Virus record (IMG/VR): IMGVR_UViG_3300045303_000084
Coordinates: 1 to 60,237 of that record
Length of the DNA stretch: 60,237 nt
Direction: 5' to 3' (one strand)
From: a virus
Below the pieces are notes generated by a model. That model was not told the DNA's origin. It made no database searches and saw nothing but the letters and a program-made list of their open reading frames with translations. Below, piece by piece: positions 5,033-59,174 of the stretch (positions are counted from its first letter, which is position 1; every line of letters begins with the position of its first letter). Made by a program: the position numbers and the translations under genes.

Positions 5033-5074
5033 ATGGATATCCCGACTCATGAGCGGTTACGGCAATGGGCGATT
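5033..5074 (+). pseudogene. Abandoned 5' stub of the gene now starting at 5682
   Basis: ATG 5033 has a strong TAGGAGAG site and reads MDIPTHERLRQW, then runs antisense into the HNH gene. The intact gene at 5682 reads MADLVSHQEIEEAY behind a very similar TAGGAG site. D, H and several conservative positions match. I read this as the original start left behind by the endonuclease insertion. Confidence 0.45.
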
Positions 5075-5587
5075 AGCACTACGTTGCCGCATGTAGGCGC
5101 GCATGTAGCAGCGACGGCAGAAACCACGTCCCCAATGCGGCAGATCAGTTGTCTCGCATTCGATGCAGCGGTCATGCGAAACCGACCACGCTCCGGTTCT
5201 TCGAGCGACACTTGGCGCTCGCAGCGTCTTCGGATCGGCCTTGTCCCACACGATGTGGCAGTGTCCACACAGCCAGCGTACTTCTAGGGGCTTGGAATAA
5301 TCATGATGCGCAGCGGTGATCCGGCGATTCTCACAACCGCACTCTTCGCACGCCGATGCGCGCGTCAGAATGCCACGGGAGATCGCTTGAGCAACGGCAT
5401 TCGCGGCGCGCTGGATCATCCTGTGGCGCTCGATATTGGCCGCCTGCCAACGAAGGGTCTGCTCGCGTTTCCATTCCGGATGAGTTTCTGCGTAGCGCTT
5501 GACGGCTTCGCGGCTCTTTGCGGGGTTCTCAGATCGCCACTTACGCATGTCAGCGGCATGCTTTGCTCGGGTAGACTCATCACGCAT
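5057..5587 (-). CDS. HNH-type homing endonuclease
   Basis: 176 residues read leftward from ATG 5587, with GGAG six bases upstream. The first 70 residues are a basic helical domain with repeated Arg/Lys/Trp, like DNA-binding segments of HNH enzymes. Residues about 80-120 hold CEECGCENRRITAAHHDY followed by WLCGHCHIVWDK, the zinc and His-Asn-His-like core. A second Cys4 cluster (CIECETTDL, CRRCY) ends the protein. It lies antisense among late genes with its own promoter and leader hairpin. Expected activity is DNA cleavage at a homing site. The stop TAA is the complement of a Leu codon in the stub at 5033. Confidence 0.75.
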   Translation of the reverse strand: MRDESTRAKHAADMRKWRSENPAKSREAVKRYAETHPEWKREQTLRWQAANIERHRMIQRAANAVAQAISRGILTRASACEECGCENRRITAAHHDYSKPLEVRWLCGHCHIVWDKADPKTLRAPSVARRTGAWSVSHDRCIECETTDLPHWGRGFCRRCYMRAYMRQRSANRPLP

Positions 5588-5615
5588 CGGGTGCTCCAAT
5601 CACTCGGTGTGCTCT

Positions 5616-5662
5616 GGCCCGACATTGCTCTAACAATGTCGGGCCTTTGTGCGTCAATTATA
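5616..5662 (-). promoter_or_regulatory. Endonuclease leader: extended -10 box and 5' hairpin
   Basis: On the minus strand TGG-TATAAT (-10 at 5657-5662) is followed by a perfect 12-bp stem (5616-5627 with 5634-5645, 6-base loop), then a CACACC block, GGAG and the ATG of the HNH gene. The same order is seen at six other endonuclease genes in the window. Confidence 0.65.
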
Positions 5663-5681
5663 CCATCTGGTAGGAGTTGAT

Positions 5682-7590: not shown

Positions 7591-8265
7591 TCACGTCCAT
7601 CCCTTGCCGGTCACGATCAGGGAGATCGTCGCTTGCGACACGTTGAACTGTGCAGCAAGAGCCTTCTGGGAGACGGTGCCGTTCGCGTACAGCGTACGGA
7701 TCAGGATGGCTTGATCGCGATTCAGTCGGGCGTGGGGCCGGCGGGTTCGTACATCTGGATCGGCAGTGTACCCACCGCCTCTACCGATCAGGCCACGCAT
7801 CTTGGCTGCCATGTCGGCCTGATTGGCAGCGATCGCTCCGAGCCAGAGATGACCGTGCCGTTCGTACTCGATGCCATTGACAACATAGACGCCGGTGTCG
7901 TCGTGACGGACGCATCGTCGCACATCGCAAGTATGGCCGACGATCAGCCCAAGTGGTGGCGTCAATCCAGTTGCACGATACCATGCGATGTGATGGGCGA
8001 GAACATCGCCGGCCCGATAGTCTGCGGGATTGGGCAAGACACCGTAACCCTTCGCTTGCGTCCTACCCGGCCAGAGACGGCATTCTCCGTCAACGATCAG
8101 ACTCTCCCAGACTGTTGGACCGCTCCATCGACCACGCCCGCGAGAGTCGAGATAGCAGGCGCGGTTGTGAAATCGACCACGGCCAATGCTGATCGCATAA
8201 GCGCTGGCGAGGAATCCATTCCCGCACCATTCGCAGACGCGGGGGATGGTACCCTTGTTGGGCAT
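7591..8265 (-). CDS. HNH homing endonuclease (HNH_3 type)
   Basis: 224 residues from ATG 8265, preceded by AGGGGGTG. An earlier GTG at 8274 is less likely. The N-terminus has a zinc knuckle (CEWCGNGF...CYL). Residues 110-165 carry the His-Me-finger core: IVGHTCDVRRCV, then GHLWLGAIAANQADM. The C-terminal 55 residues look like a resolvase-type helix-turn-helix (RLNRDQAILIRTLYANG, QKALAAQFNVSQATI). The gene lies antisense between two tail-completion genes with its own promoter. Its first 10 codons and leader are identical to those of the 11036-11683 gene. Confidence 0.85.
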   Translation of the reverse strand: MPNKGTIPRVCEWCGNGFLASAYAISIGRGRFHNRACYLDSRGRGRWSGPTVWESLIVDGECRLWPGRTQAKGYGVLPNPADYRAGDVLAHHIAWYRATGLTPPLGLIVGHTCDVRRCVRHDDTGVYVVNGIEYERHGHLWLGAIAANQADMAAKMRGLIGRGGGYTADPDVRTRRPHARLNRDQAILIRTLYANGTVSQKALAAQFNVSQATISLIVTGKGWT

Positions 8266-8344
8266 CAGGCTCACCCCCTGGTGTCAGGCCCCGGGTGTTG
8301 CAAGCACGCCGGGGTCACTTCGTGTCTAGATTTTACCATGCCTG
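8234..8344. repeat. 111-bp perfect direct repeat, copy 1
   Basis: Identical base for base to 11652-11762. It covers the first codons of the HNH gene, its ribosome site, leader hairpin (8289-8314), -10 box and a plus-strand ATG. Identity stops abruptly on both sides. Confidence 0.95.
8289..8335 (-). promoter_or_regulatory. Endonuclease leader: extended -10 box and hairpin
   Basis: Minus-strand TGG-TAAAAT (-10 at 8330-8335), an ACACGAAG block, a CCCCGG/CCGGGG stem with inner GTG/CAC pairing (8289-8314), CTGACACC, AGGGGGTG, then ATG 8265. Confidence 0.65.
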
Positions 8345-8365
8345 CGCATCTGGTCGGGGGCTCTG

Positions 8366-11029: not shown

Positions 11030-11050
11030 GTGACATCAATCGACAGCAAA
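11030..11050 (+). pseudogene. Abandoned start of the tail chaperone gene
   Basis: GTG 11030 with GGAGG 6 bases upstream reads (V/M)TSIDS and then enters the antisense strand of the HNH gene. The working start at 11783 reads MSIDIG. The match is short, but placement directly after the tube terminator is where the chaperone start should be. Confidence 0.35.
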
Positions 11051-11683
11051 GGGCAGCAGTCGTTCCCGCGCGGCGCGGGCGACTTCGGCGGCCTCATGCT
11101 CCGATGCGAACACGCCGAGGTAGTGATTGACTCCCGCACTCTTGACGTACGCCATCCATTTCTGAGTCTTCTTGTGCCACGACACGCCACGGTGCGCAGA
11201 CGACGTGGCGTGGTAACTAGGTTTGTTCTGCGCGTTAGCACCTGTCGCCTTCCTATGAACACGCAGATTCGTTCGGCGGCAGTTCAGACGGTTCCGATCG
11301 ATATGGTCGACCTCCATCCCGTCGCCTTCGGTCAGTCCACAGAGATACCGATGCAGACGGATGCGGTGGTCGCGCCCGTCAATGCGTTTTGTCATGACCG
11401 CGTATCCCTTGCTCAGATGCCAGCGGTACTGACCAACGTCCTCGACGTCGTCGGCATCCACGATAGCGTTCGCGCGGACCATCCCGTGGCGATCGAAAAG
11501 CGGTACGTAGGCCGTGGTGCCATCGGCACTCAGGAGGGCACCGGACGGTGGACGACGATGAGCAAGGCTACGGCAAACGTTGGAGCAGTACAGCGCGCGT
11601 CCAACGTTGACTTGCCCGACCAGTGCCAAGAAATCGGCACCGCATTGCTGACAGACGCGGGGGATGGTACCCTTGTTGGGCAT
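11036..11683 (-). CDS. HNH-AP2 homing endonuclease
   Basis: 215 residues from ATG 11683, with the same AGGGGGTG site as the 8265 gene. Zinc knuckle at residues 10-38 (CQQCGADF...YCSNVC). The HNH core is at about 110-140 (EVDHIDRNRLNCRRTNLR, a textbook DH...N...N motif). An AP2-like DNA-binding region follows at 155-205 (HRGVSWHKKTQKWMAYV, HYLGVFASEHEAAEV). The gene is antisense between the tail tube and tail chaperone genes. Its start and leader are identical to the other HNH gene, but the catalytic part is from a different subfamily. Confidence 0.9.
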   Translation of the reverse strand: MPNKGTIPRVCQQCGADFLALVGQVNVGRALYCSNVCRSLAHRRPPSGALLSADGTTAYVPLFDRHGMVRANAIVDADDVEDVGQYRWHLSKGYAVMTKRIDGRDHRIRLHRYLCGLTEGDGMEVDHIDRNRLNCRRTNLRVHRKATGANAQNKPSYHATSSAHRGVSWHKKTQKWMAYVKSAGVNHYLGVFASEHEAAEVARAARERLLPFAVD

Positions 11684-11762
11684 CAGGCTCACCCCCTGGT
11701 GTCAGGCCCCGGGTGTTGCAAGCACGCCGGGGTCACTTCGTGTCTAGATTTTACCATGCCTG
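11652..11762. repeat. 111-bp perfect direct repeat, copy 2
   Basis: Identical to 8234-8344. It includes the leader hairpin and the -10 box of the HNH-AP2 gene (TAAAAT at 11748-11753, minus strand) and an ATG at 11757 that is in frame with the tail chaperone. Confidence 0.95.
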
Positions 11763-11782
11763 ACCAGATCAGAGAGGACGCC

Positions 11783-22643: not shown

Positions 22644-22732
22644 CCATAGTGGACTACCGCCATGCTGGTATGGGATGGAGTAACGGCCCGATCGAGGGCG
22701 GAAACAGCCGCATCCTCTCGCTGCCGTCACGA
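22640..22732 (+). pseudogene. Abandoned 5' part of the endolysin gene
   Basis: ATG 22640 opens a frame reading ...RHAGMGWSNG...RILSLPS and ends where the antisense HNH gene stops (22727). The working endolysin start at 23328 reads KHAGIHFPEN...TILGMPG. HAG, N, and the IL-x-x-P positions match at the same spacing within two gaps. Confidence 0.5.
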
Positions 22733-23257
22733 GTTGTGCCCCCACCATTTGCCTCGGCCCTTTGCTCTCATATCGGCTTGATTGGCTGCTGGTGTTCCAA
22801 GCCAGAGATGCCCGCGCCGTTCATAGGCCACGCCTTCAACGACATAGGTGCCGGCGGTGTCGTTACGGACACAGGCCGGATTATCTCCACCGGGGCAGTC
22901 GTGACAGACATACTCCCAGCGCGTTGGCCAGTGGCCCGTCGCAAGAAACCACGCTGCTTTAGACATCGTGGTCGACGTTTTTACTCCGTCCGGACGGACC
23001 GCGATGATGACGCCATAACCGAATGCGTGATGGCCGCCCGTTGCCACCCAGCAAGAGTGTGTCTTCTTGACACGTGGCCAGAATCGGTCCGGAAGTGGCG
23101 ACAATACGTGATCTCGCGACCGCTGCTCTGCCGAGCACGCAAACGAGCAGAATTTGACATTGCGATCGCTTCTCAGGCGAGTGGGGCCGCCGCAGACGAG
23201 GCACGTTCCCGTACCAATGTAGTTGCAGTACCGGCGCGTGGTACGATCGGGATGCAT
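22727..23257 (-). CDS. HNH homing endonuclease (HNH_3 type)
   Basis: 176 residues from ATG 23257 with GGAG 8 bases upstream. The zinc knuckle CLVCGGPTRLRSDRNVKFCS (residues 19-38) precedes a core with YVCHDCPGGDNPACV (114-128) and GHLWLGTPAANQADMRA (about 147-163), the His-Me-finger order. It shares the insertion between the Cys/His part and the GHLWLG part with the 7591 gene. The gene lies antisense between the tail-tip gene and endolysin. The stop is the complement of a Ser codon in the stub. Confidence 0.85.
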   Translation of the reverse strand: MHPDRTTRRYCNYIGTGTCLVCGGPTRLRSDRNVKFCSFACSAEQRSRDHVLSPLPDRFWPRVKKTHSCWVATGGHHAFGYGVIIAVRPDGVKTSTTMSKAAWFLATGHWPTRWEYVCHDCPGGDNPACVRNDTAGTYVVEGVAYERRGHLWLGTPAANQADMRAKGRGKWWGHNS

Positions 23258-23276
23258 CTGGTCACTCCAGGTGTCA

Positions 23277-23325
23277 GCCCCCGGCGGTGGCGACCGTGCG
23301 GGGGCACTTCGTGTTGAGAATTATA
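23277..23325 (-). promoter_or_regulatory. Endonuclease leader: extended -10 box and hairpin
   Basis: Minus strand TGG-TATAAT (23320-23325), ACACGAAG, a GCCCCC/GGGGGC stem (23277-23282 with 23300-23305; inner CGGT/ACCG), CTGACACC, GGAG, ATG 23257. The CAT before the -10 box is, on the plus strand, the ATG of the endolysin (23328). Confidence 0.65.
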
Positions 23326-23327
23326 CC

Positions 23328-25439
23328 ATGAAACACGCAGGGATTCACTTTCCGGAGAACGCCGGCGGCGAGCATCCAAACATTGAAACTATCCTGGGGA
23401 TGCCCGGCATCAGCCACGGCTGTACGCTCATCTGCGCCCCATCAGCTCGGTACTGGTATAGACAGGCTCGCGGTGCATCACCTCTCGTCGTCTGGCGAGC
23501 GATCCCACGCCAGGGGGCGCTACCGGCGCAACTCAACTGGATCGGGAAGCGAGTTGCAGACGAATGTCTCAACCTTTGGGACGAACAACCGCATGGTGGC
23601 ATTGAGCACTTTACGCCGCTGAACGAACTGCAATTCGTCAAAGAGGCCGGCGAGGTTTTTCGCTCGTATGCTGAAACAGCCTCGAAGCTATCGAACGTGC
23701 GCATTGCCCTGCGCCAACGCTTCGACGCGCTCGGTCAGACGGTCCGGCTGATGTTCCCGGCCTGGGTGCCTCAGGATGACATGGACCGAATCCTCGAATG
23801 GGAAGACGAGGCGCGGCAGTGGGACACCATCGGCCTGCACTGCTACGGCAGCGCGGAGACGATGCGGACGCGGTACGACAGTTACCGAGCCGCGTTCCCA
23901 GACCATCCGATCTTCGTCGGTGAGTGGAACGCCAACCACGAGGGGCACGACGAGCACGCCGCGCTCCAGATGTGGGCCGAGGTTTCCAATACCGATCCCG
24001 GATTCACGGGGGCGACCTACTACATCTGGGAGACTCGGAATCAGGGTGAGGCCGACCTGTCCATCTGGGGCAACCCCGCCCGCCTCGTCCTCTTCCAGAA
24101 TCCGCCGACCGTTGCCGAACCAGAGGATCCGGTAGAACCGGAGGATCCTGAGATGCCGACGCTTGATCCGTGGCAGTATTGGACTCCCGACGCCTTGGCA
24201 ACGCTCATCCAGTGTCCGCGTGACGCGGTGGCGACGAATTGGCCCAAACTCTGCGAACAACTCGGCCACGTCGCGCGGCAAACGGGGCAAGACATCTTCC
24301 TGACGAAAGACACGCTCGTCGCGCTGGCTTCCACGGTGGCGATTGAGACGGCGCACCGCTTCCAACCAATCCACGAGTACAGGATGGCTGACGGCTCGAT
24401 CCCGGCCTACTGGTACACCTACGACGGCGGGCCGGAGTACCACGGTCGCGGCTTCATCCAGAACACGCACAAGTACAACTACGCCGACCTTGGTCCGAAG
24501 ATCGCGGCACTGTGGGGTGCCGGTCCGAATGACTTTGACTTCGTCGCCCGTCCCGATGATTTGCTCGATCCCGATCTTTCGGCAGCAGCATCAGCCATCT
24601 ACTTTCGCGACCATGCCCGCGAAGACGGTGATGGCATCCCAGAGGCAGCGTCTCGGGGTGATTGGCGCGCGGTTCGTCAGCTCGTTCAGGGTGCTGATGC
24701 TGGGCTTACTGAGCTGATATCCTACGCAACGGCACTCGGGGGAACCGTCGTCCCGCCAGTGGACGATACGACGTCCTACAGCGTCAATGTACCTGACGAC
24801 GTCGTCCTTCAGCAGAACAATTGGTCGTGCGCTGTGCGATCGACGTACGCAGCGCTCTGGGCAATGGCACAGGTTGCGCAGGGCGAGCCGGTCACGTACG
24901 GCGACGAGGGGCTACGCGACGTATATGAGTGGATGGTGCCGGCTTTGGCCGATGCCTCAGTCGGGCTCCATGATGGTAGTGGCGCGCAGCTCGCAGCCAT
25001 GCTCCGTGACAAGGGGTACGATGCCGAGAGCGTCTATCCATGCTCCATCGAGCAGGTACGCGAGCGAGCCGGTACAGAGCCGGTCCTGATCGGCGGCGCG
25101 GCCTGGAATCACTGGAGCTACGTGCGCGGGAAGCACGCCGATGGGGGGTTGATCCTGGAGAACCCGTCCCCCGGCCACGATGGTATCACCGACTACATCA
25201 GAGATAGTTGGGGGCGTCTCGGACCGTTCTCGGCAGTGTTCATCCGCCAATCTGTACCCGTTGAGCCGGAGCATACACTGCCGACGTATGAAGACCTGGC
25301 AAACCTGGAGGGCGTCGCCTATCACGATAACGGCGTCGTGATCCCAGCGCTGGAGGGGGCGAAGGCGGTCGGTGACTGGTCACAGGTTGACGCCGTCGTC
25401 AAGTTTCTCCGTGATAACGATCCTCACAAGGCCGCCTGA
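23328..25439 (+). CDS. Endolysin: glycosidase-like, GH19-like and C39-like domains
   Basis: 703 residues from ATG 23328. Residues 1-265 look like a TIM-barrel glycoside hydrolase (EHFTPLNELQF, with N-E of the acid/base type; IFVGEWNANHEG; YYIWETRN). Residues about 285-480 match a GH19 lysozyme/chitinase (ALASTVAIETAHRF; EYHGRGFIQNTHKYNYADLG). Residues about 510-660 match a C39-type peptidase (QQNNWSCAVRSTYAALWAM; AAWNHWSYVRG; ENPSPGHDG). No signal peptide is visible, so a holin should release it. No good ribosome site precedes the ATG, which is embedded in the HNH promoter. Confidence 0.85.
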   Translation: MKHAGIHFPENAGGEHPNIETILGMPGISHGCTLICAPSARYWYRQARGASPLVVWRAIPRQGALPAQLNWIGKRVADECLNLWDEQPHGGIEHFTPLNELQFVKEAGEVFRSYAETASKLSNVRIALRQRFDALGQTVRLMFPAWVPQDDMDRILEWEDEARQWDTIGLHCYGSAETMRTRYDSYRAAFPDHPIFVGEWNANHEGHDEHAALQMWAEVSNTDPGFTGATYYIWETRNQGEADLSIWGNPARLVLFQNPPTVAEPEDPVEPEDPEMPTLDPWQYWTPDALATLIQCPRDAVATNWPKLCEQLGHVARQTGQDIFLTKDTLVALASTVAIETAHRFQPIHEYRMADGSIPAYWYTYDGGPEYHGRGFIQNTHKYNYADLGPKIAALWGAGPNDFDFVARPDDLLDPDLSAAASAIYFRDHAREDGDGIPEAASRGDWRAVRQLVQGADAGLTELISYATALGGTVVPPVDDTTSYSVNVPDDVVLQQNNWSCAVRSTYAALWAMAQVAQGEPVTYGDEGLRDVYEWMVPALADASVGLHDGSGAQLAAMLRDKGYDAESVYPCSIEQVRERAGTEPVLIGGAAWNHWSYVRGKHADGGLILENPSPGHDGITDYIRDSWGRLGPFSAVFIRQSVPVEPEHTLPTYEDLANLEGVAYHDNGVVIPALEGAKAVGDWSQVDAVVKFLRDNDPHKAA

Positions 25440-30605: not shown

Positions 30606-30693
30606 GGAGCGTGAGTCATGCGGCAAAGACACCGCCCTGCTAAGGCGGCAAGGGGTCACACCTGGCCGGGTTCGATTCCCGGGCGCTCCGCCA
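30606..30693 (+). tRNA. tRNA-Ser(GCU), complete with CCA
   Basis: Acceptor GGAGCGT pairs with GCGCTCC (30683-30689), then G and CCA. Anticodon stem CCGCC/GGCGG encloses CTGCTAA (anticodon GCT). Long variable arm (AGG/CCT), as in class II serine tRNAs. T arm CCGGG-TTCGATT-CCCGG. D stem GTC/GAC. A TACAAT box at 30594-30599 ends six bases before the tRNA. The anticodon reads AGC/AGU codons. The 3' half overlaps the integrase gene end. Confidence 0.93.
30650..30693. other. Candidate attP core (tRNA 3' half)
   Basis: Integrases of this type commonly use the 3' half of a tRNA gene as the crossover site, and the integrase stop (30656) lies inside this tRNA. The T-arm and acceptor segment is therefore the best candidate core. 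The presence of the full tRNA is unusual for an attP and could mean that the phage carries its own copy. Confidence 0.45.
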
Positions 30694-31888
30694 TCTCCTC
30701 GTCCCGCCGGAACGCCTGATCGAGTTCCGCCGCGAGTTCGTCCACCCGGGCCTGCGTCACGCGGAGGGCCCGCTGGTAGAACTTCGCGGTCGTCGCAACG
30801 TTCGAGTGGCCGAGCAGAAACGCAACCCGGGGCAGGGCCATCCCCCGGTCCAACAGTAGGGTGGCAGCCGTCGCCCGCATATCTTTCGGCGTGATCCTGG
30901 GCAGCCCGGCCGCCGCGATCAACTGGTCAATCGTGACCGAGAACTGGCGCAGCGACAATGGCTTGTCCGTCGTCCGGCCCGGCACCAACCAGACGGATAG
31001 CCGATAGTCTCGGACGTGCCTCCGCGCCGCTTCCTCCAGCTCACCGAGTGGGATATCCCTGATCTGCCGCCCCTTCGTGTCGTCCGTCTCGCCGGCCCGA
31101 TCGCCGGCCGTCGAGCTAATCGTCACGATCCGCCGCCGCCAGTCGATGTCGGCTCGCCTGATCGCCAGCACCTCACCGCGCCGAAGCGCTCGACGGAGCA
31201 GCAGCCGGCACGGGAACGACAGATCGGGACGGAGCCGGTCAACCGTCTGGAGGAACCTGTCGGCCTGATTGGCGTCCCAGACCCGCTGTGGCTGCTCCTG
31301 CGTGCGCCCGAGTTTGATTCGCCGCACGGGATTGGCCGGCAGGATCGCCGGCACCAGATGGTCAAGCGCCTGGTGGAGCGTAGCGCGCGCTGCACGGATC
31401 GTAGAGGGGGCGTACGGGTGTCCTGGGCCATAGGGCACCATGCCTGCCGCCGAGCGCTTACGGCGCCGCCAGGTGGCCGTCTGGAGCCCACTGATAGCCG
31501 ACATCACGACCTCGTGGGTCAAGTCACCGAGGCGCACGTCTCCGATGGACACGAACAGCAGCACGCGCCGCCGGTAGGCCCGCGCTGTGCGCTGGGGCCA
31601 CCCCGGCGCGTAGAGACGCCACCAGCGCTCTAGATAGGCACCCAGCGGCTCGCTGAGCGTGGCAGCTCGCGGTGTCGGATTCCGGAGCCGTCGTGCCTCG
31701 GCGTCGAGCCATGCCGTCGCCTGCTCGACGGATGTCCACGGGATGCGGCGGCCGGGTGAATAGATGGGCCGGCGGTGGGGGTCGAGGTCCGGAGGAAGGA
31801 CAACCGCGATACGGCCATCCTTGCGGACGATTACGCTGCCGGTGTTCGGGGCACGGCGTTTCGGCTTCGATGGTGGCTGGCGGGGCAT
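30656..31888 (-). CDS. int: Tyrosine-type integrase
   Basis: 410 residues. Residues 55-165 form a SAM-like core-binding domain (LSEPLGAYLERWWRLYAPGW). Catalytic residues: Arg in LLLRRALRRGEVLAIRRAD, Lys in TDDTKGRQIRDIPL, then PKDMRATAATLLL (Arg present; the usual first His is Lys), LLGHSNVATTAKFYQR with His and the nucleophile Tyr. The last residues (MAERPGIEPGQV) are translated from the antisense of the tRNA. It would insert the phage into, and with a helper excise it from, a tRNA-Ser gene. It lies 5 bp downstream of the repressor gene and is probably co-transcribed with it. Confidence 0.93.
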   Translation of the reverse strand: MPRQPPSKPKRRAPNTGSVIVRKDGRIAVVLPPDLDPHRRPIYSPGRRIPWTSVEQATAWLDAEARRLRNPTPRAATLSEPLGAYLERWWRLYAPGWPQRTARAYRRRVLLFVSIGDVRLGDLTHEVVMSAISGLQTATWRRRKRSAAGMVPYGPGHPYAPSTIRAARATLHQALDHLVPAILPANPVRRIKLGRTQEQPQRVWDANQADRFLQTVDRLRPDLSFPCRLLLRRALRRGEVLAIRRADIDWRRRIVTISSTAGDRAGETDDTKGRQIRDIPLGELEEAARRHVRDYRLSVWLVPGRTTDKPLSLRQFSVTIDQLIAAAGLPRITPKDMRATAATLLLDRGMALPRVAFLLGHSNVATTAKFYQRALRVTQARVDELAAELDQAFRRDEEMAERPGIEPGQV

Positions 31889-48781: not shown

Positions 48782-49002
48782 GGCTTTACAGCATGACCAG
48801 AGACGGCGCCTGGCGCGGCTATACACGCGAGGCGTTCCGAGAGTTGCGGCATGGCCGAGACGTGCGCTGGGCGCTTCGGACACTCTGGAAGATGCTTGGT
48901 CCGGGTCTTCATATCGGCATGATGTCGTATGAGGCCCGGTTTGGCCCGTTCATCCTTGCGCATTGGCGTGGCGGTGAGCAGCGTTGGAAGATTGGCGCAT
49001 GA
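48778..49002 (+). CDS. Small unknown packaging-region protein
   Basis: 74 residues by ATGA overlap with terL. Arg/Trp/Gly-rich (HGRDVRWALRTLWKMLGPGL). Not recognised. Confidence 0.5.
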   Translation: MRLYSMTRDGAWRGYTREAFRELRHGRDVRWALRTLWKMLGPGLHIGMMSYEARFGPFILAHWRGGEQRWKIGA

Positions 49003-49050
49003 GCCTACAAGCGGTCCTGTCGCGCTACCCAGAATATGGTAAAATTGTCG
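48999..49050 (+). pseudogene. Possible abandoned start of the portal gene
   Basis: ATG 48999 (ATGA overlap) reads MSLQAVLSRYPEYGKIV and continues in frame into the HNH gene. The portal now starts at 49751 with (V/M)SVLTSLQGFF. The SLQ segment matches, but the similarity is weak. Confidence 0.3.
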
Positions 49051-49084
49051 CAGTAATGCCGGGCGCTGTTGTAGCAGCCCCGGC
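49040..49084 (+). promoter_or_regulatory. Endonuclease leader (sense orientation)
   Basis: TGG-TAAAAT (-10 at 49040-49045), then a stem GCCGGGCGCTG (49058-49068) with CAGCCCCGGC (49075-49084) and a single bulged C, then GGAGG and GTG 49116. The same order as at the six antisense endonuclease genes. Confidence 0.6.
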
Positions 49085-49115
49085 CCGAACTAGCCTGTTG
49101 TGGAGGCCAGTTGCG

Positions 49116-49763
49116 GTGAGTGTACCACCGACTGGGCGAGCGTGCGTTGCTTGCGGTGAATGGAAGTCAGCCGAGCACTTCTACGGACATAAGCGGGGTA
49201 TCAACGGACTCACAGGTCGTTGTAAGTCCTGCTACCGAGTATACCAGCAGGCTTGGCGTGAAAATAACGCCGCGCTGATGCGAGAGCGCACAAGAGCATA
49301 CAACCGGCGACATCGAGCCAAAAATCCTCGTTTGGCTGTTCAGCGGGCTCAGGCATACCGAGCCGCGAACTACGTTACGGTGATGGCTCGCGAAGCTCGT
49401 TTCCGAGAAGAGAATCGGGAGCGTTTGTTAGCTCGCCGCCGCGAGTTGAGGCAGCAGGCGCGGGAACGCTACACCGCGTATCACTACGCCTGGATCGCTC
49501 GCCGGAAGGCGAATGGCGGATCGTTTACGTCGGAAGAATGGGCGAGGCTTTGCAGCTTCTACGGCGGAAGGTGTCTCGCCTGTGGCCGTGTCGCGAAACT
49601 GACGGTTGACCATGTTGTGCCGGTATCGCGTGGCGGCTCGGACGACATCAGCAATCTTCAACCGCTCTGTGGCCCGTGCAATTCCCGAAAGGGGAACCGG
49701 CGGATTATCGACTACCGTCCGTTCTCGTCACTGCTCGACGGGAGTTGTATGTGTCTGTCCTGA
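49116..49763 (+). CDS. HNH homing endonuclease
   Basis: 215 residues from GTG 49116 with GGAGG 10 bases upstream. Upstream in-frame codons belong to the stub and leader. CVACGEWKSAEHFYGHKRGI...RCKSCYRVYQQAWRE is an N-terminal zinc module, then a long basic helix (about 50-145). HNH core at about 155-200: CLACGRVAKLTVDHVVPVSR, ISNLQPLCGPCNSRKGN. It separates the terminase and portal genes. The portal start lies inside its last codons. Confidence 0.88.
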   Translation: MSVPPTGRACVACGEWKSAEHFYGHKRGINGLTGRCKSCYRVYQQAWRENNAALMRERTRAYNRRHRAKNPRLAVQRAQAYRAANYVTVMAREARFREENRERLLARRRELRQQARERYTAYHYAWIARRKANGGSFTSEEWARLCSFYGGRCLACGRVAKLTVDHVVPVSRGGSDDISNLQPLCGPCNSRKGNRRIIDYRPFSSLLDGSCMCLS

Positions 49764-51382
49764 CGAGTCTGCAAGGGTTCTTTGGAGGGGCATCAACGAG
49801 CCTCAATGGTTCGGCCTATCCGTATCGTGCGCACGTTGCATCACGAGTTACGGCGCAGGATCTCCCGCCCAGGGCGTTGTATGACTTCTTGAAGACGATG
49901 TATCTTTCGGTGGGCGCTTACGATGACATGCGTTTGGGGTGGGCTGCGACCGGCTACAGCTCGCCGTCACTCAAGGCGATCAGAAACCCCGTTACCGCCG
50001 TTGTGGACGTTCTGGGCTCCAAGTTGTATCCCGAGCCGCTGACGGTTACCACGCCGCGTACGCAGGGTTTGACGAGTCAGCAAGAGCGGCAACAGGCCGA
50101 GCAGGACGACCCGATCAAGGCGGCCATCGATCAGGTACAGCTCTGGTCAAACTGGGGACGCGCCAAGCGCAAGCACGCCAGATGGGTCAGTCTGTACGGT
50201 GAGGCGTTCATCAAGGTCGTGGCCGATCCGATCGCTGGCCGCGTCTACTACGAACTGATCGAGCCGCAGTACGTGACGGATTACAGCATCGACGTGCGCG
50301 ACTTCATCACCAGTATCCGCCTCGACATCCCGCAGTGTGACGTGGACCGAAACGGCAGGCGACATTGGGTCCATACCGAGGCGTGGGACAAGGATCTCCA
50401 GAGCGTCCGCATTTGGCGTACGGACGGCATGCTCGATAGCGTGACGAATCGTTCACTGGACGACCTCGGTACACCCGTCATCGAGATGTCTCTCTCAGCC
50501 TTTGGCATCGACTTCGTGCCGATCTGCCGTGCGCCGTTCCGTGAGATTGATGACGGTCGTGCGCTCGGCGCCGTACAGCCGGCGTTAGAAGCCATCATCG
50601 AGGGCGACCTGTCAGCCACCAATCTGCATAGCCTGGTGTTCTCGGACCTGGCCGGCGCGAAGGTGCTCAAGAGCATCGGCAATGACGCGACCGGGCGTCC
50701 GTTCGCGCCGCCCCAGGTTGCTGCCGCCAACGCAGACGGGCAGAACGGCCGACAGACGGACAACACCGTCCTTGTCGGCAAGCGTGAGTTCTGGCGCCTG
50801 CCCGGCAACCAGGAATTGCAGGATGTGATTCCGAACATCAATTACGCCGCCGCGCTCGCTATCCTTCAGGATCATGACCAGCACCTAGAGCGATTGCTCC
50901 CAGCATTGGGCTATATCCGTATCAGCGAAATGTCTGGTGGCGACCTGTCCGGCAAGGCGATCACGTACAAGATGCGCGCCTTTGTGGATCAGGTCGAGGA
51001 AGGACGGAGCAACGTCCTGGCCTGCCTGAAGCAAGCCGACATGATGGCGTTGACGATGGGGCAGGCGGCCGGCATCTTCTCGGATCTCGGATCGTTCGAG
51101 GCTGGCGACTTCGAGCATTCCTACCAGGACGAGCCGATCCTTCACATTTCGACGCTGGACGAGGCCGAGGAAGAACGTACCAGGGCACAGGCTGCGCAGG
51201 CGTACGCGGCGGCTGGCATCCCGATGTCGGTCATTCTCACCGGACCGCTGGAGATGACCGAGGATGAGGCCGCTGAGGTCGTGGACGAAGCGACGGCAGA
51301 GGCAGAGCAAGCCTTCCAGCAGCAGCAAGAGCTGGCAGCCGCACAACCGGCACCGGGAGATGGCAATGGCCCGCCTCAGTGA
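49751..51382 (+). CDS. Portal protein
   Basis: 543 residues from GTG 49751 with GGGAG 8 bases upstream. Typical SPP1/phi29-like portal layout: N-terminal helical/wing region, YSSPSLKAIRNPVTAVVDVL (residues about 70-90), YGEAFIKVVADPIAGRVYYE (clip/stem), a long crown-directed helix, acidic C-terminus. It forms the DNA channel at the capsid vertex and binds the terminase. Confidence 0.85.
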   Translation: MSVLTSLQGFFGGASTSLNGSAYPYRAHVASRVTAQDLPPRALYDFLKTMYLSVGAYDDMRLGWAATGYSSPSLKAIRNPVTAVVDVLGSKLYPEPLTVTTPRTQGLTSQQERQQAEQDDPIKAAIDQVQLWSNWGRAKRKHARWVSLYGEAFIKVVADPIAGRVYYELIEPQYVTDYSIDVRDFITSIRLDIPQCDVDRNGRRHWVHTEAWDKDLQSVRIWRTDGMLDSVTNRSLDDLGTPVIEMSLSAFGIDFVPICRAPFREIDDGRALGAVQPALEAIIEGDLSATNLHSLVFSDLAGAKVLKSIGNDATGRPFAPPQVAAANADGQNGRQTDNTVLVGKREFWRLPGNQELQDVIPNINYAAALAILQDHDQHLERLLPALGYIRISEMSGGDLSGKAITYKMRAFVDQVEEGRSNVLACLKQADMMALTMGQAAGIFSDLGSFEAGDFEHSYQDEPILHISTLDEAEEERTRAQAAQAYAAAGIPMSVILTGPLEMTEDEAAEVVDEATAEAEQAFQQQQELAAAQPAPGDGNGPPQ

Positions 51383-52632: not shown

Positions 52633-53364
52633 GTGGCTGACTTCACGACGATGCGTTTTGAACTGAATACTAACTCCAACGCTTCGCCAACATGGACGAC
52701 AGTGCCGGCGTCTGGCTCGGGTACTGGTCAGGAGTTGCGGTTCTCTGATGTCAGCACGGCGGGCTCTACCGCTTCTGCGTCGTGGCCATTTGTAACGCGC
52801 CCGACTTCGGGCACCGCCGGCGTTGACTACCTCTACGTCTTCACGGCTGACACGACCTCGCTGGGGTCTATTGGTGGCGGCACATCAACGCCGGCCGCGT
52901 TCTCGAACGCAAACTATCTGGAGTTCCGGCTCTGGTGGGACAACGTCGGGACGTTCGCCAGCGCGCCGATCTACACGGCGTACCCGACGACTGCCCACGG
53001 CTCGGTGACGCGCGGCGACGGCTCGCTACTCGGCGGCCATGCCACGGATACCGGTGGTACGGCGCGCTCCTACCTCAAGGGCGCAATGTTCGGCCGGGTG
53101 GTATCGGCTGGCGCACCGGCCGCCGCTGTCGGCTCAGCCCCGACCGTGACCGATGGGACGACTGGAGCGGTTAGCCCGACCGCCGGCGCGAACTGGAGCA
53201 CGTACCAGGGGCTTCAAGGCGATAACGATTACCTTCAATTCCCATCGACCCCGGCAGCGACCACGCAGGATCAGCTAAATCTGATGATCCGTCTTTTCAC
53301 TGGTGCGAATATGAGTCCAGGCACTCACACGCCAGTGGTGAGCGTGAAGTACACCTGGACGTAG
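52633..53364 (+). CDS. Abundant structural protein, unknown
   Basis: 243 residues from GTG 52633. Thr/Ser/Gly/Ala-rich beta sequence throughout, with internal strands (TYQGLQGDNDYLQFPSTPA; NYLEFRLWWDNVGTF). The strong ribosome site and low-complexity beta composition suggest a head decoration or tail-fibre-type virion protein. No family recognised. Confidence 0.55.
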   Translation: MADFTTMRFELNTNSNASPTWTTVPASGSGTGQELRFSDVSTAGSTASASWPFVTRPTSGTAGVDYLYVFTADTTSLGSIGGGTSTPAAFSNANYLEFRLWWDNVGTFASAPIYTAYPTTAHGSVTRGDGSLLGGHATDTGGTARSYLKGAMFGRVVSAGAPAAAVGSAPTVTDGTTGAVSPTAGANWSTYQGLQGDNDYLQFPSTPAATTQDQLNLMIRLFTGANMSPGTHTPVVSVKYTWT

Positions 53365-53374
53365 TTTGCAAAGA

Positions 53375-54121
53375 TTACACAGATGGCTTTTGAGGCAGTC
53401 CGCGATGATTGAGCGCGCGAATCTCAGCGATAAGCGGTACGCGAGCGGCGAGGGTTTCGTCGCTGACCCATCGTGGGGCTTTGCCTCCGCGCGTGTATCC
53501 GAGGTCGCTGAGAGCCAGCACGATCTCTGCTTGCCGATGCTTGATCTTCAAGTACGGCAGGAGTCTTCGGCAGAGACGGACTGCTTCGGTGCCACCCGCA
53601 TACCAGTTCTGCACTGGCTTGTGGATACCCGGGCGAACGGCTCTCGGAGCGGTCAGGTATCCGCCGAACGTCTTTGCTACCCACTGCATAACGGGCTCGT
53701 AGGTATTCGCCATCATCAGTCGGCAGTGCATGCTCTCGTTCCCGGTGCTCGGGCTCGTCGTCATGCGGACAGTAATGGTGCCCTCGCCATCGATCAGGCC
53801 GGCGAAGTAGATGAGATCGCGCTCGTCGTCTGGAATGATGACCGGGACGTTTTCTGCGGCGCTCTTGCACTCGAAGCTACAGAACCGTTGCGGCTTGGCC
53901 GCGTTCGGTGCGTGCGGCCGGAACTCGGCGCCGCATTGCTCGCAGGGCATGACGACGGTGTGTCCTGTCCCCTTGAGCGGCGACGGACGGCCCTTGCTGC
54001 CGACACCACGGCATGTCGCGGAGCAGTAGCGGACGGCTCGTTGCTTGACGCGGAACGGCTCAACGAGGAACTCGGAGCCGCAGACCTCGCATGTGCGGGG
54101 CATGGTACGCTTTTGGGGCAT
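53375..54121 (-). CDS. LAGLIDADG homing endonuclease with N-terminal zinc knuckles
   Basis: 248 residues from ATG 54121 with GGAGG upstream. Two zinc knuckles (CEVCGSEFLVEPFRVKQRAV...CSATC and CEQCGAEF...CSFEC) form residues 7-90. The LAGLIDADG helix, YFAGLIDGEGTI, is at about 104-115, followed by a single typical alpha-beta core. One motif implies action as a dimer. It shares the knuckle module and leader with the HNH cassettes although the nuclease fold is different. The stop codon is TAA, 10 bp beyond the upstream gene's stop. Confidence 0.88.
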   Translation of the reverse strand: MPQKRTMPRTCEVCGSEFLVEPFRVKQRAVRYCSATCRGVGSKGRPSPLKGTGHTVVMPCEQCGAEFRPHAPNAAKPQRFCSFECKSAAENVPVIIPDDERDLIYFAGLIDGEGTITVRMTTSPSTGNESMHCRLMMANTYEPVMQWVAKTFGGYLTAPRAVRPGIHKPVQNWYAGGTEAVRLCRRLLPYLKIKHRQAEIVLALSDLGYTRGGKAPRWVSDETLAARVPLIAEIRALNHRGLPQKPSV

Positions 54122-54147
54122 CAGATCCTCCAACGGTCTGGTGTCAC

Positions 54148-54197
54148 GCCCCGGGCTGTTTCTACCAGCGCCGGGGCTTCATCGTGCCTGAAGTATA
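54148..54197 (-). promoter_or_regulatory. Endonuclease leader
   Basis: Minus strand TATACT (complement of 54192-54197, without the TG), a GCCCCGG/CCGGGGC stem (54148-54154 with 54171-54177, inner GCTG/CAGC), GTGACACC, GGAGG, ATG 54121. Confidence 0.6.
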
Positions 54198-54220
54198 CCG
54201 TCTACCAGGAGGGATGACCG

Positions 54221-54475
54221 ATGCCAAAGAAAGACGATGCGCCCGAGCTGACCGTCTGCGACGGCTGCGGGATGGAGCGCGACGACGTGAACGGCGACGG
54301 CTACTGCCCGGCCTGTGCTGAGCGCCGCGCCGATGATCCACAGGTCACGGTGCAGGGTCGCGCGCTGACCGTCTCCGAACTGGAGATGCAGGCCGAGGAC
54401 GACGAGCACCTGGCAGCAGCGCTCAAAGGCGATAGCGTGCAGGATCAGATCAAGGTGGCAAAGGCGGATCGGTGA
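54221..54475 (+). CDS. Small zinc protein with acidic tail
   Basis: 84 residues from ATG 54221. CDGCGMERDDVNGDGYCPAC at residues 13-32 is a zinc ribbon, followed by an acidic helical tail. Function unknown. Confidence 0.5.
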   Translation: MPKKDDAPELTVCDGCGMERDDVNGDGYCPACAERRADDPQVTVQGRALTVSELEMQAEDDEHLAAALKGDSVQDQIKVAKADR

Positions 54476-54690
54476 ACGAGATGGGTCAGTGTCGGGATTG
54501 CCGCTGGTGGGAAGTTTCCGCGCAGGAGCAGGATAGCGGTAAGCGATTCTGTGGCCTGGCTACCAGTGACGATGGCGTGGCGCTCCATACGGAAACACCG
54601 TTTTGGGCAGTAGCAACAGATGGCGGCGAGGCGGTCGTCTTTACGAGTCCAGACTTCGGCTGCGTCCAGTTCGAGAGGAAAGAATCGTGA
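54472..54690 (+). CDS. Small Cys-containing protein
   Basis: 72 residues from GTG 54472, GTGA overlap. CRDCRWWEVSAQEQDSGKRF then CGLA and CVQF give one Cys4 site, as in the common CxxCxxW phage proteins. Function unknown. Confidence 0.5.
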   Translation: MNEMGQCRDCRWWEVSAQEQDSGKRFCGLATSDDGVALHTETPFWAVATDGGEAVVFTSPDFGCVQFERKES

Positions 54691-54782
54691 GCGCCGTTGC
54701 CGATGTCCTCAAGACGATGGACCCGGCCGCCCTGCGCGCCCGTGTGACAGGTCGGCCGTGGTGGCGGGTGTCAGTCATCATC
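54688..54782 (+). pseudogene. Abandoned 5' part of the gene now starting at 55379
   Basis: GTG 54688 (overlapping the previous stop) reads about 31 residues ending LRARVTGRPWWRVSVI and then enters the antisense strand of the HNH gene. The intact copy at 55379 contains MHARLKGRSYWRMRFI: 7 of 16 positions are identical and most others are similar. This is the clearest duplicated gene start in the window. Confidence 0.6.
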
Positions 54783-55301
54783 GCCAACGACATCGACGTA
54801 GCGATGCTCGAATTTGGGTCCATAGCGCCAAGTTTGCCGGTGTCGCTCCGGGTCTGTCCGGGCGAAGTGTCGATCTCCCGTAGGCAAGCGTCCTCGCTCA
54901 GAAGCGTCAGCCATGTTGTCAGCCTGGGTGCCGAGCGAGAGATGCCGAATGTTGCAACACGGGGGATTGTCGCACGCATGCCGGACCTTCAATCCGGGAG
55001 GAATCGGACCGTACGACAACTCCCAAGCCACTCGGTGAGCCTTAGCAGGCCGGCTATTGACGCTGACCTGTCCGTAGCCTCGCCCATCGGTCGCCCCGAT
55101 CCATACGTGGCACTCATTGGGCGTTCCGAGTCGCACCTTGTCCCAGAACCGATCTGCAATAGGGACTCGGCGGCTCGAATGGAGACTGTCGCGGCAGCCC
55201 AGACTGCAAACCTTGCCTCGATTTCCACGAATTCTCGACGGTGTCGTGGTGAAGGTAGATCCGCAGTATGCGCAGTCTCGCGTGATAGGATTTGGACGCA
55301 T
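54771..55301 (-). CDS. HNH homing endonuclease (HNH_3 type)
   Basis: 176 residues from ATG 55301. Zinc knuckle CAYCGSTF...CSLGC at 10-35, DRFWDKVRLGTPNECHVWIG at about 50-70. The catalytic core is VRHACDNPPCCNIRHLSLGT followed by QADNMADASERGR, a textbook HNH_3 signature. Antisense cassette with the shared leader. The stop is the complement of a Ser codon in the stub at 54688. Confidence 0.88.
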   Translation of the reverse strand: MRPNPITRDCAYCGSTFTTTPSRIRGNRGKVCSLGCRDSLHSSRRVPIADRFWDKVRLGTPNECHVWIGATDGRGYGQVSVNSRPAKAHRVAWELSYGPIPPGLKVRHACDNPPCCNIRHLSLGTQADNMADASERGRLPTGDRHFARTDPERHRQTWRYGPKFEHRYVDVVGDDD

Positions 55302-55329
55302 CGGAAGTACATCCCTTCTGGTGCCACGT

Positions 55330-55376
55330 CCCCGGCAGTTCGCGCTGCGCGGGGGCTCTCTTGTGCCGGAATTATA
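55330..55376 (-). promoter_or_regulatory. Endonuclease leader
   Basis: Minus strand TGG-TATAAT (complement of 55371-55376), GCACAAGAG, a CCCC-G-GCAG/CTGC-GC-GGGG stem (about 55330-55355), GTGGCACC, AAGGGA, ATG 55301. The plus-strand ATG 55379 is embedded in the extended -10 box. Confidence 0.6.
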
Positions 55377-55378
55377 CC

Positions 55379-55804
55379 ATGAATGTCGCGCGTATGCTGA
55401 TTCCACTCGAAATGCACGCTCGTCTGAAGGGGCGTTCCTATTGGCGTATGCGCTTCATCGACGGTCGCACGATTGATGAGCGTGACGTGGACTGGAGTCT
55501 CGCGCCGCAACGAGGGAGGATGGCCCTGCAACTGGTCTGCCCGGATGGTCAAATTGCTCAGGTCGGGAATACACAAGACTCGACGGGAAGACTTTTCCAA
55601 CTGAAAGCCGGCGCACTGACCGGCTCGACGCGGAGCACTGACGCGCACCTGATCGGGATCGTGCATGGCACGGACGGGCAGGCGACGGTCGCTGCCTGGG
55701 AGTACGGCCCGAAGCGGCTCGTGACATTTGAGGACAACGTGTGGAATGTTCGATACCGGGGCATCGGGCGCCTGAATTTCGATGTTCTCGGGATCAGGGG
55801 GTAA
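55379..55804 (+). CDS. Unknown structural-region protein (replacement start)
   Basis: 141 residues from ATG 55379. Segments RMRFIDGRTIDERDVDWSLA, MALQLVCPDGQIAQVGN and TDAHLIGIVHGTDGQATVAA. These resemble a family of phage proteins next to tail or decoration genes, but the function is not established. No clear ribosome site lies before the ATG. Confidence 0.6.
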   Translation: MNVARMLIPLEMHARLKGRSYWRMRFIDGRTIDERDVDWSLAPQRGRMALQLVCPDGQIAQVGNTQDSTGRLFQLKAGALTGSTRSTDAHLIGIVHGTDGQATVAAWEYGPKRLVTFEDNVWNVRYRGIGRLNFDVLGIRG

Positions 55805-57351: not shown

Positions 57352-57615
57352 TTGACTTTGATTCGCACGGATGAATCAAATACAGTACGCCGCCCTCACG
57401 GCGTACTCTACGCTGTCCACTTCGATGGATCATTAGAGGAGCGCGACATCCTCGTGTGCCGACACTGCGCCTATACCTGGGCCGTCATCCCAGGGAGCGG
57501 CAAGCAGCGCGGCTGGTGTCGCCTCTGTAGCGGCCCGCTCTGCGGCAAGACGCCGTGCATGACCTCCTGTGTCCCGTATGAGCGGATGATCGAGCAGATC
57601 GAGGCTGGCGGATGA
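57352..57615 (+). CDS. Zinc-binding virion-associated protein
   Basis: 87 residues if the TTG at 57352 is used. AVHFDGSLEERDILVCRHCA, then WCRLCSGPLCGKTPCMTSCV. The CxxC...CxxC...CxxxxC...C order is the pattern of a widespread small phage protein. The only later usual start, GTG 57454, would remove the HFDGSLEERD part. Two hairpins (57357-57407) lie in its first codons, so start choice or translation may be structure-controlled. Confidence 0.6.
   Translation: MTLIRTDESNTVRRPHGVLYAVHFDGSLEERDILVCRHCAYTWAVIPGSGKQRGWCRLCSGPLCGKTPCMTSCVPYERMIEQIEAGG
57357..57407 (+). promoter_or_regulatory. Two tandem perfect hairpins in the 5' coding region
   Basis: TTTGATTC (57357-57364) with GAATCAAA (57373-57380), and AGTACGCCG (57384-57392) with CGGCGTACT (57399-57407). 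Possible terminator or translation control before the zinc protein and repeat protein. Confidence 0.5.
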
Positions 57616-59174
57616 GCAACTGGCTGCTGATCCCGGTCAACGCGGCGATCGGTTGGATTCAGGCTGTCATCGGTGCTGCCACGACTGCGTACAACGACGC
57701 CGCGACGCGCCTGCGTCTTGCCGTTCCCGGCGTCAAGGACGCGACGTTCCGCGCCCGGCTCCAGGCGACCGGGTACAAGGATGCCGGCCTCCGAGCGCGC
57801 GTCAACGTTCGTGGCTTCAAGGACACCGGTGTCCGCTTCCTGCTTCGCGCGACGGCGTACAGAGACGCGACAGCCCGATTCCGCCTCTACGTTCTGAACT
57901 ACCGCGACGCCACCCTCCGGCTGGTACTGCGCGCGACGGGGTACCGTGATGCGGTTGCTAGATTCCGCCTCGCCGCGACCGCATACCGCGATGCGGTCGC
58001 CCGGCTCCGGCTGCGTACAACCGCCTACCGCGACGCAACGCTCCGATTCCGCCTCCTGACGACGGCCTATCGAGACGCCGTCGTTCGTGCTCGAATCGGG
58101 GTGCTCGGCTACAAGGACGCGGCAGCTCGTCTGCGCGTGCGGGCTACGGGCTACCGTGACGCAGCCTTCCGCTTTCGCCTGACCGGCCCGGCCTACCGTG
58201 ATGCTGTTGCTCGATTCGCGCTCCGGACTGGCGCCTATCGGGATGCCACGACTCGCCTCGTGCTCTATGTCCGCAATTATCGAGACGCCGTCCTGCGCCT
58301 GCGACTGGCCGGCACGGCCTACAGGGACGCTGTAACTCGTCTGCGGCTCATGGCGACGGCGTACCGAGATGCTACCCTGCGCTTACGCCTCCAGATCACG
58401 GGCTATCGTGATGCGACCGCCCGCGCTAGGATCAGGGCGACGGCCTACCGCGACGCTACTGTCAGGTTCGTGCTGGCAGCTCCGGGCCTCTCGTACCGTG
58501 ACGCGACGGTCCGTCTTCGCCTCCGGGCAACCGCGTATCTGGACGTGGCAACACGGATCAGGATCGCTGCTCGCGCATTCAAGGACGCGGTTGCCAGGCT
58601 CCGTCTCGCAGGTTCCGGCTTTCGCGACACTGTAATCCGCCTTCGACTCCGGGCGACGGCCTATCTTGACGCCGCGAGCCGCTTCCGGTTGGCCGTTGGC
58701 GCATTCAGAGACGCGACCTCCCGCACCCGAATCCGGGTGCCCGGCTGGCGCGATGCGGTTGCTCGCCTGCGCCTACGGACAACGGCCTACCTGGATGCCA
58801 CGCTCCGAGTGCGATTGGCGGTCCGCGCCTACCGCGACGCCACAGGCCGGCTGCGCCTGGTGGCACTGGCGTTCAGGGATGCTACGGGCCGGGTGCGGGT
58901 CCGTGCGCTCGGTTACCGGGACGCTACCGGGCGCCTCGTGCTGTACGTCGGTGGCTATCGGGATGCAGCGTTCAGGTTGCGGATGATCGCCCCGGGCTAT
59001 CGAGATGCCGGCCTGCGGTTTTCCGTCAGGATCGCCGCCGGCCCCGGCACGGTTACGGCCGGTACGCTTCCGGTTGGTGGTGTGCAATCTGGGGGTATCT
59101 CCATCGGTGGTATCTCCGGCGGTACGCTGGCGGTGGGCGGCGTAGGGTCGGGAACGGCGCCGGAAGACGGATAA
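57612..59174 (+). CDS. Arg-rich tandem-repeat protein (about 32 x 14 residues)
   Basis: 520 residues from ATG 57612 by ATGA overlap. Residues 1-26 are hydrophobic (NWLLIPVNAAIGWIQAVIG). From residue 27 to 476 the protein is a tandem repeat of consensus (Y/F)(R/K)DAxxR(L/F)RLxxxx, period 14, with one 16-residue unit. The alternation of Arg and hydrophobic residues suggests stacked beta strands. The last 44 residues are Gly/Thr/Ser-rich. It lies among virion genes. A structural, coat or DNA-contact role is possible. Not recognised. Confidence 0.85.
   Translation: MSNWLLIPVNAAIGWIQAVIGAATTAYNDAATRLRLAVPGVKDATFRARLQATGYKDAGLRARVNVRGFKDTGVRFLLRATAYRDATARFRLYVLNYRDATLRLVLRATGYRDAVARFRLAATAYRDAVARLRLRTTAYRDATLRFRLLTTAYRDAVVRARIGVLGYKDAAARLRVRATGYRDAAFRFRLTGPAYRDAVARFALRTGAYRDATTRLVLYVRNYRDAVLRLRLAGTAYRDAVTRLRLMATAYRDATLRLRLQITGYRDATARARIRATAYRDATVRFVLAAPGLSYRDATVRLRLRATAYLDVATRIRIAARAFKDAVARLRLAGSGFRDTVIRLRLRATAYLDAASRFRLAVGAFRDATSRTRIRVPGWRDAVARLRLRTTAYLDATLRVRLAVRAYRDATGRLRLVALAFRDATGRVRVRALGYRDATGRLVLYVGGYRDAAFRLRMIAPGYRDAGLRFSVRIAAGPGTVTAGTLPVGGVQSGGISIGGISGGTLAVGGVGSGTAPEDG

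Follow-up and report, generated by a model that had tools for sequence, protein, structure and literature searches.

A likely homing-nuclease cassette within the opening codons of a phage gene, flanked by a diverged copy of the gene start

INTRODUCTION

Mobile open reading frames (ORFs) that form gene hybrids have been described in fungal mitochondria, in Allomyces atp6, Rhizopus atp9, Mortierella cox2, and Glomus atp6, atp9, cox2, and nad3 (PMC3630166). Each of these elements arrives with a diverged 3′ end, which takes the place of the native end while the latter stays behind as an orphan, and endonuclease activity has been reported as responsible for their mobility (PMC3630166). Among phages, intronless homing is known for the seg and mob genes of the T-even group, and the T4 enzymes cut at a distance of hundreds to thousands of bases from their own genes (PMC2988022). 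In Skunavirus, HNH endonucleases occupy variable sites within the phage group, including the interval between the terminase and portal genes (PMC12724721).

Here, we analyzed a virus record of 60,237 bases (the window, meaning the whole stretch of DNA under analysis), in which an antisense HNH gene probably interrupts a gene start near 54.7 kb. The locus meets the criterion of a free-standing homing endonuclease, namely a nuclease-family ORF outside introns and inteins (PF13392 match, no Rfam intron). It also meets that of an Allomyces-type gene-hybrid element, in which a diverged second copy of the target-gene end flanks the endonuclease gene.

The phage and prophage elements described below resemble the fungal ones in having an endonuclease gene in the target gene, a diverged, protein-preserving replacement end, and an orphaned native end. 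As in fungi, insert-free relatives match the orphan end, here at a Corallococcus site and at a phage portal site. However, the fungal elements replace the 3′ end and have the nuclease on the sense strand, frequently in the reading frame of the gene, whereas ours carry an HNH gene (in one case a LAGLIDADG-like gene) antisense to the target, replace 5′ as well as 3′ ends, and add a promoter-like leader of their own and an antisense frame that is kept open. Because the 3′ sense-strand arrangement is not met at 54.7 kb, we regard the phage elements as working like the fungal ones without being members of that group.

Like seg and mob, these are free-standing phage nuclease genes among late genes that would be spread by break repair with co-conversion of the flanks. 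Unlike in those systems, the end of the stub points to insertion within the target, accompanied by a replacement gene end; the relevant sections of the T-even review mention no stub of this kind (PMC2988022). The variable siting of HNH genes, the terminase-portal junction included, is shared with Skunavirus, and no duplicated gene ends were found in the text of that paper (PMC12724721). A further parallel is offered by synthetic home-and-rescue drives, in which a nuclease sits within the essential gene that it targets, along with a recoded rescue of that gene (PMC7968924). Those drives are engineered, Cas9-based, and made for insects, and the likeness is one of principle only. No precedent for replaced gene ends in phages was found in the open-access literature searched.

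RESULTS

A diverged second gene start beside the nuclease

The features of the locus, together with the other antisense cassettes of the window, are given in Table 1. The stub opens with a GTG at 54687–54689 that overlaps the stop codon of the upstream gene, for which no Pfam or PHROG family was matched. An earlier note, made from the sequence alone, had placed this start at 54688 and had proposed common ancestry between the stub and the start of the right-hand gene; the former claim holds with a shift of one base and the latter holds on the scores given below. The 31 residues of the stub, VSAVADVLKTMDPAALRARVTGRPWWRVSVI, run into the stop of the antisense HNH gene (TCA, 54771–54773).

Table 1 Coordinates of the 54.7 kb locus and of the other antisense cassettes in the window
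Feature	Coordinates	Strand	Remarks
Second antisense nuclease cassette	5057..5587	-	Possible stub from ATG 5033, in phase; next gene 5682
Third antisense HNH cassette	7591..8265	-	Two codons into a gene
Fourth antisense HNH-AP2 cassette	11036..11683	-	Antisense frame continues in frame into next gene
Fifth antisense cassette, zinc-finger nuclease-like	22727..23257	-	Precedes endolysin gene; resembles HNH relatives
Sixth antisense cassette, LAGLIDADG-like ORF (below Pfam cut-off)	53375..54121	-	Same leader
Upstream gene, 72 aa, function unknown	54472..54690	+	TGA overlaps stub GTG (GTGA)
Stub, 31 codons, read as resident 5′ end of target gene	54687..54779	+	Homology to right-hand start
Stub frame	54687..55382	+	Open through whole antisense nuclease, in codon phase with it
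HNH_3 endonuclease gene	54771..55301	-	PF13392, E 2e-15; N-terminal zinc-finger-like cysteines
Nuclease leader	55302..55388	-	Shared by 16 cassettes from several phages
Probable imported 5′ tract of target gene	55379..55619	+	GC3 0.56, then 0.82; extent inferred
Working target gene (right-hand gene), 141 aa, function unknown	55379..55804	+	ATG at 55379

The stub and the right-hand start align without gaps over 26 residues with a BLOSUM62 score of 51. None of 5,000 shuffles of the stub reached this score, and across the 12,674 pieces obtained by six-frame translation of the window, unrelated frames scored 36 at most. The pair also stood out when mismatched flanks drawn from 122 cassettes served as the null (P = 0.0003), and when start-anchored peptides were used, its score was matched by 0 of 2,350 mismatched pairs. 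Reading the stub onward into the antisense nuclease raises the score to 61; the stub may extend to about 54830 beneath the nuclease tail. DNA similarity between the two starts is negligible, which indicates that they are old homologues. A recent target-site duplication was considered and ruled out, the DNA of the two starts being too diverged.

The right-hand gene changes in composition along its length, with the GC3 step listed in Table 1 falling after about 80 codons (change-point permutation P = 0.011). Across the window, GC3 was lower in 7 cassette-adjacent gene starts than in 37 other genes (P about 0.01).

The nuclease and its leader

The product of the antisense gene matches PF13392 with 56.4 bits, against a curated cut-off of 24.8, and the conserved columns of the catalytic motif are present. 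It is without the C-terminal helix-turn-helix found in relatives; having lost this part, the copy may be decayed or inactive, and no activity data are available.

Upstream of the nuclease lies a leader consisting of an extended −10-like box, TGGTATAAT (55371–55379), a hairpin at about 55328–55356, the element GTGGCACC, and a purine-rich ribosome site. The order of −10-like box, hairpin, and GTGGCACC is shared by 16 leaders from the window and other phages, across which compensatory changes occur at six of six hairpin pairs. No Rfam family matched anywhere in the window.

Leaders occupy minus-strand positions 55302–55388, 54122–54206, 23258–23338, 8266–8350, 11684–11768, and 5588–5668. With its TATAAT-like box, covarying GC hairpin, and GTGGCACC, the leader is common to the nucleases of unrelated phages and to the LAGLIDADG-like ORF; its function is unknown. 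Two different HNH cassettes are identical over 111 nt of leader and gene start (8234–8344 and 11652–11762), which suggests that the leader may recently have been exchanged between cassettes.

An open frame on the strand opposite the nuclease

The frame begun by the stub ends in a TGA (55380–55382) that overlaps the right-hand start codon, forming ATGA at 55379–55382. Codon phase between stub and antisense nuclease was matched in all nine of the first-listed 5′ cases and also in L180 and L205. Among the 3′ stubs, three of four were in phase, with L189 breaking the rule.

Only TTA, CTA, or TCA codons in the nuclease can introduce a stop into a phase-matched antisense frame. Just one such codon occurs in the six window nucleases, compared with 21.9 expected from their own A-ending codon use and about 15 when the expectation is scaled by the genome's own bias (Poisson P = 4e-6). 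Among 31 open frames, 7 had a stop overlapping the start of a following ORF (60 codons or longer), versus 9 of 254 other frames (P = 5e-4). Calling orientation by the longest ORF is crude in GC-rich DNA, and the class totals that rest on it are therefore merely supportive. The open frame is broken in some members (L139, L191, L269, and L189). Translational coupling through the insert remains an inference.

Duplicated flanks across HNH cassettes

An HNH profile scan added 80 cassettes and a genome scan 35. For 122 HNH cassettes, translated flanks on both sides of the nuclease were compared, with mismatched flanks serving as the null. A duplicated flank with a score of 50 or more on the strand opposite the nuclease was found in 7 of the 122, against 0.2 expected (Poisson P = 2e-9). 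On the nuclease's own strand, a frame-free test found flank duplication in only 1 of 122, near chance.

The duplications comprise a 5′ type, with an orphan gene start (the window at 54.7 kb, L139, and L191, the last with a 74-codon stub), and a 3′ type, with an orphan gene end and an antisense nuclease (L119, L140, L035, and L189). A further short 5′ case, L180 (MAFNGSGVP / LPFNGSGTF), was spotted by eye. In L119, the last 14 codons have a GC3 of 0.38 versus about 0.9, marking an imported 3′ end. The L191 target had no homologue besides itself in 249 genomes of its class, and the L139 portal had no relative among named phages.

A separate observation concerns L035, where an HNH-AP2-like match at 14441–15007 lies near a very similar AAGGAAAA-flanked direct sequence. 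The same AAGGAAAA-flanked sequence also occurs to the right of that phage's other two cassettes (CTTGCTGTGGCAAGGAAAA), and it is possibly a recombination remnant.

Empty alleles at a Corallococcus gene end

The L189 cassette sits in Corallococcus carmarthensis. A survey of this site in 96 genomes of the family found the cassette in one further genome, and eight extracted alleles were uninterrupted. The eight uninterrupted ends share 77–93% nucleotide identity with the orphan stub, compared with 49–57% with the working gene's end. Since the resemblance is to the orphan stub, the working end is the part that arrived with the nuclease.

Empty alleles at a phage portal start

The target of the L139 cassette is a phage portal gene. 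Of 80 portal loci, 7 carry an antisense HNH gene at the terminase-portal junction, and 39 are comparable empties. In one cassette-bearing phage (L239), the 73 nt left of the nuclease, including the six portal codons that make up the stub, are 100% identical to the empty locus of L258. The working portal start of L239 keeps 57 of 58 residues (in the four stretches where both could be read), while 53–67% of its codons are changed through codon ~64, versus 19–36% between empties at like distance. Its GC3 is 0.39–0.50 over 60 codons versus 0.82–0.93 in the empties.

Comparison of L239 with L290 showed unrelated upstream sequence, followed by a left arm, nuclease, leader, and ~56 portal codons that are 99–100% identical; beyond this tract, identity falls to 81–84%. 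This pattern, expected of homing with co-conversion, indicates that the nuclease and its replacement start were transferred jointly. Presence/absence polymorphism with shared flanking tracts is thereby shown at the portal site.

At the L234–L313 terminase-portal junction, at least three nuclease types occur at different insertion points within one phage group. This junction offers a ready natural system for homing experiments.

Relatives of the target gene

Single-protein scans of viral contigs returned no close relatives of the right-hand gene, portal, or endolysin. Among phages, no close relatives of the right-hand gene or portal were found, and a scan of genome contigs found none of the major capsid protein. 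Terminase and major capsid scans yielded about a hundred relatives, several with antisense HNH genes; the 55379–55804 gene is absent from these relatives. Viral contigs, phages, and 30 related phage records yielded no close allele of this gene that is free of the interruption.

A single distant homologue (L314/L322) of the right-hand gene was recovered from a Chloroflexota genome (E = 1e-20), where it is uninterrupted and in single copy. Its start overlaps the end of an upstream gene that is itself a homologue of the window gene at 52633–53364. At the same distance from the start, it has GRSWW where the stub and the right-hand start have GRPWW and GRSYW, respectively. It scores 67 against the right-hand start versus 34 against the stub (P = 0.008). 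This homologue confirms that the stub resembles the gene start of this family and is too distant to act as an empty allele.

Other cassettes in the window

The junction of the 7.6 kb cassette is empty in L002, in which the two flanking genes are adjacent without an insert. The ORF of the fifth cassette has no Pfam match. At the 5, 11, and 22.6 kb sites, stub/start similarity was individually non-significant (P = 0.26–0.48, anchored test), and in all, four window sites other than 54.7 kb were without significant stub similarity. Likenesses seen by eye at 5, 11, and 22.6 kb (RHAG/KHAG, THER/SHQE, and TSID/SID) failed the anchored test and were discounted; for these sites, phase alignment is a better argument than stub similarity.

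The earlier note had read the 54.7 kb locus as a cassette that brought a replacement gene end and left the resident end as a stub, and had grouped it with sites at 5, 11, 22.6, and 49 kb. The class held, being shown outside the window with empty sites, and for 54.7 kb itself the reading is supported indirectly by stub/start homology, the GC3 step, and the distant uninterrupted homologue. The 5, 11, and 22.6 kb sites are real antisense cassettes without individually significant stub similarity, and the 49 kb site failed as an antisense case, its nuclease being in sense orientation. The check it proposed, a search for an uninterrupted homologue, gave only the one distant gene, which abuts its upstream gene and is nearer the right-hand start than the stub. 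Both the 3′-end versions and the open antisense frame had been missed.

The sense-oriented HNH gene (48984–49763) lies ahead of the window's portal gene (49763–51382). GC3 in this portal gene is 0.55 over the first 40 codons and 0.75 in the remainder, and its start may be a further imported gene start.

DISCUSSION

Proposed mechanism

We consider it likely that a mobile homing-nuclease cassette has settled in the opening codons of a phage gene at 54.7 kb. A replacement end, a resident stub, empty alleles, and joint transfer of nuclease and recoded end are shown by comparison at other sites. At 54.7 kb, stub/start homology, an open in-phase frame ending on ATGA, and the shared leader are shown. 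That this copy arose in the same way as the portal and Corallococcus cassettes is inferred, and the case for it is indirect.

In the proposed mechanism, cutting by the nuclease, itself inferred, would fall near the start of the target gene in a co-infecting or resident relative that lacks the insert. The break would be repaired from the cassette-bearing copy, so that the nuclease, the leader, and the donor's version of the gene start are copied over, with the recipient's old start persisting as a stub beyond the nuclease. The donor start and the target sequence are different; the product would still work, and the start would presumably escape cutting, a resistance that is likewise inferred. 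Since the antisense nuclease shares the codon phase of the stub and avoids TTA, CTA, and TCA, ribosomes from the stub may continue across the insert as far as the new start codon and begin again from it, although re-initiation is again an inference. Such read-through would keep the late operon translated and coupled.

A bolder reading holds that these cassettes form a widespread phage family of natural home-and-rescue elements. Each nuclease would target one late-gene end, carry a synonymously recoded, cut-resistant copy of it, and keep its antisense strand open in phase, ferrying ribosomes from the broken to the new start codon and so making the insertion neutral. We can neither favor nor disfavor this reading with any confidence.

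Alternative explanations

The alternative that survives best is hitch-hiking only, in which the new gene end is ordinary co-converted DNA from a distant donor lineage, unselected for resistance. The recoded ends may indeed be merely foreign co-converted DNA of this kind: imported tracts far exceed the stub (about 64 codons versus a 6-codon stub) and differ in base composition. Against it, the encoded residues at the site itself are preserved despite altered codons, an unchanged tract recurs in different backbones, and short, sharply recoded ends such as that of L119 (14 codons) look tailored. We lean slightly against this explanation without being able to set it aside.

Tandem paralogues, that is, related genes side by side of which the first was mostly replaced by the nuclease, would account for the stub and right-hand start being diverged homologues. 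However, the empty alleles at the Corallococcus and portal sites hold one gene and not two, which refutes this explanation there, and the uninterrupted homologue of the target gene is single and abuts its upstream gene. We regard paralogy as unlikely.

Still less support remains for a plain free-standing nuclease between genes, with the right-hand gene resident under its own start and the stub a chance likeness. In its favor are the shortness of the stub, the lack of any known close empty allele for the target gene, and the closer likeness of the distant homologue to the right-hand start. However, the stub/start score exceeds anything seen among unrelated frames or start-anchored mismatched pairs, the stub has the upstream GTGA overlap and an in-phase frame, and the class is demonstrated elsewhere with the same leader, making this explanation very improbable.

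A group I intron or intein that removes the insert from RNA or protein is all but excluded: such elements commonly contain HNH genes, but the window has no Rfam match, the nuclease is antisense to the target gene, and a second complete start is present at 55379, so that no splicing is needed.

Implications of the cassette reading

If the homing-cassette reading is correct, phage homing nucleases can invade coding sequence without an intron or intein by supplying a replacement for the gene end, as has been described until now for fungal mitochondria. The elements would be natural counterparts to engineered rescue drives. They would account for short orphan gene ends and for abrupt synonymous divergence at phage gene starts, and the end of the stub would predict the cut site at single-codon precision. 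A new form of selection on the nuclease gene would also follow, with codon choice shaped by translation of the opposite strand.

Additional features of the window

Outside the cassettes, a tRNA-Ser gene (30606–30693) overlaps the 3′ end of a tyrosine integrase gene (30656–31888), and this overlap is likely the attachment site of a temperate phage. The gene at 57612–59174 is built of repeats of about 21 residues with the pattern AYRDA..R.RL (42-nt units in the DNA) and encodes an unusual repetitive structural protein.
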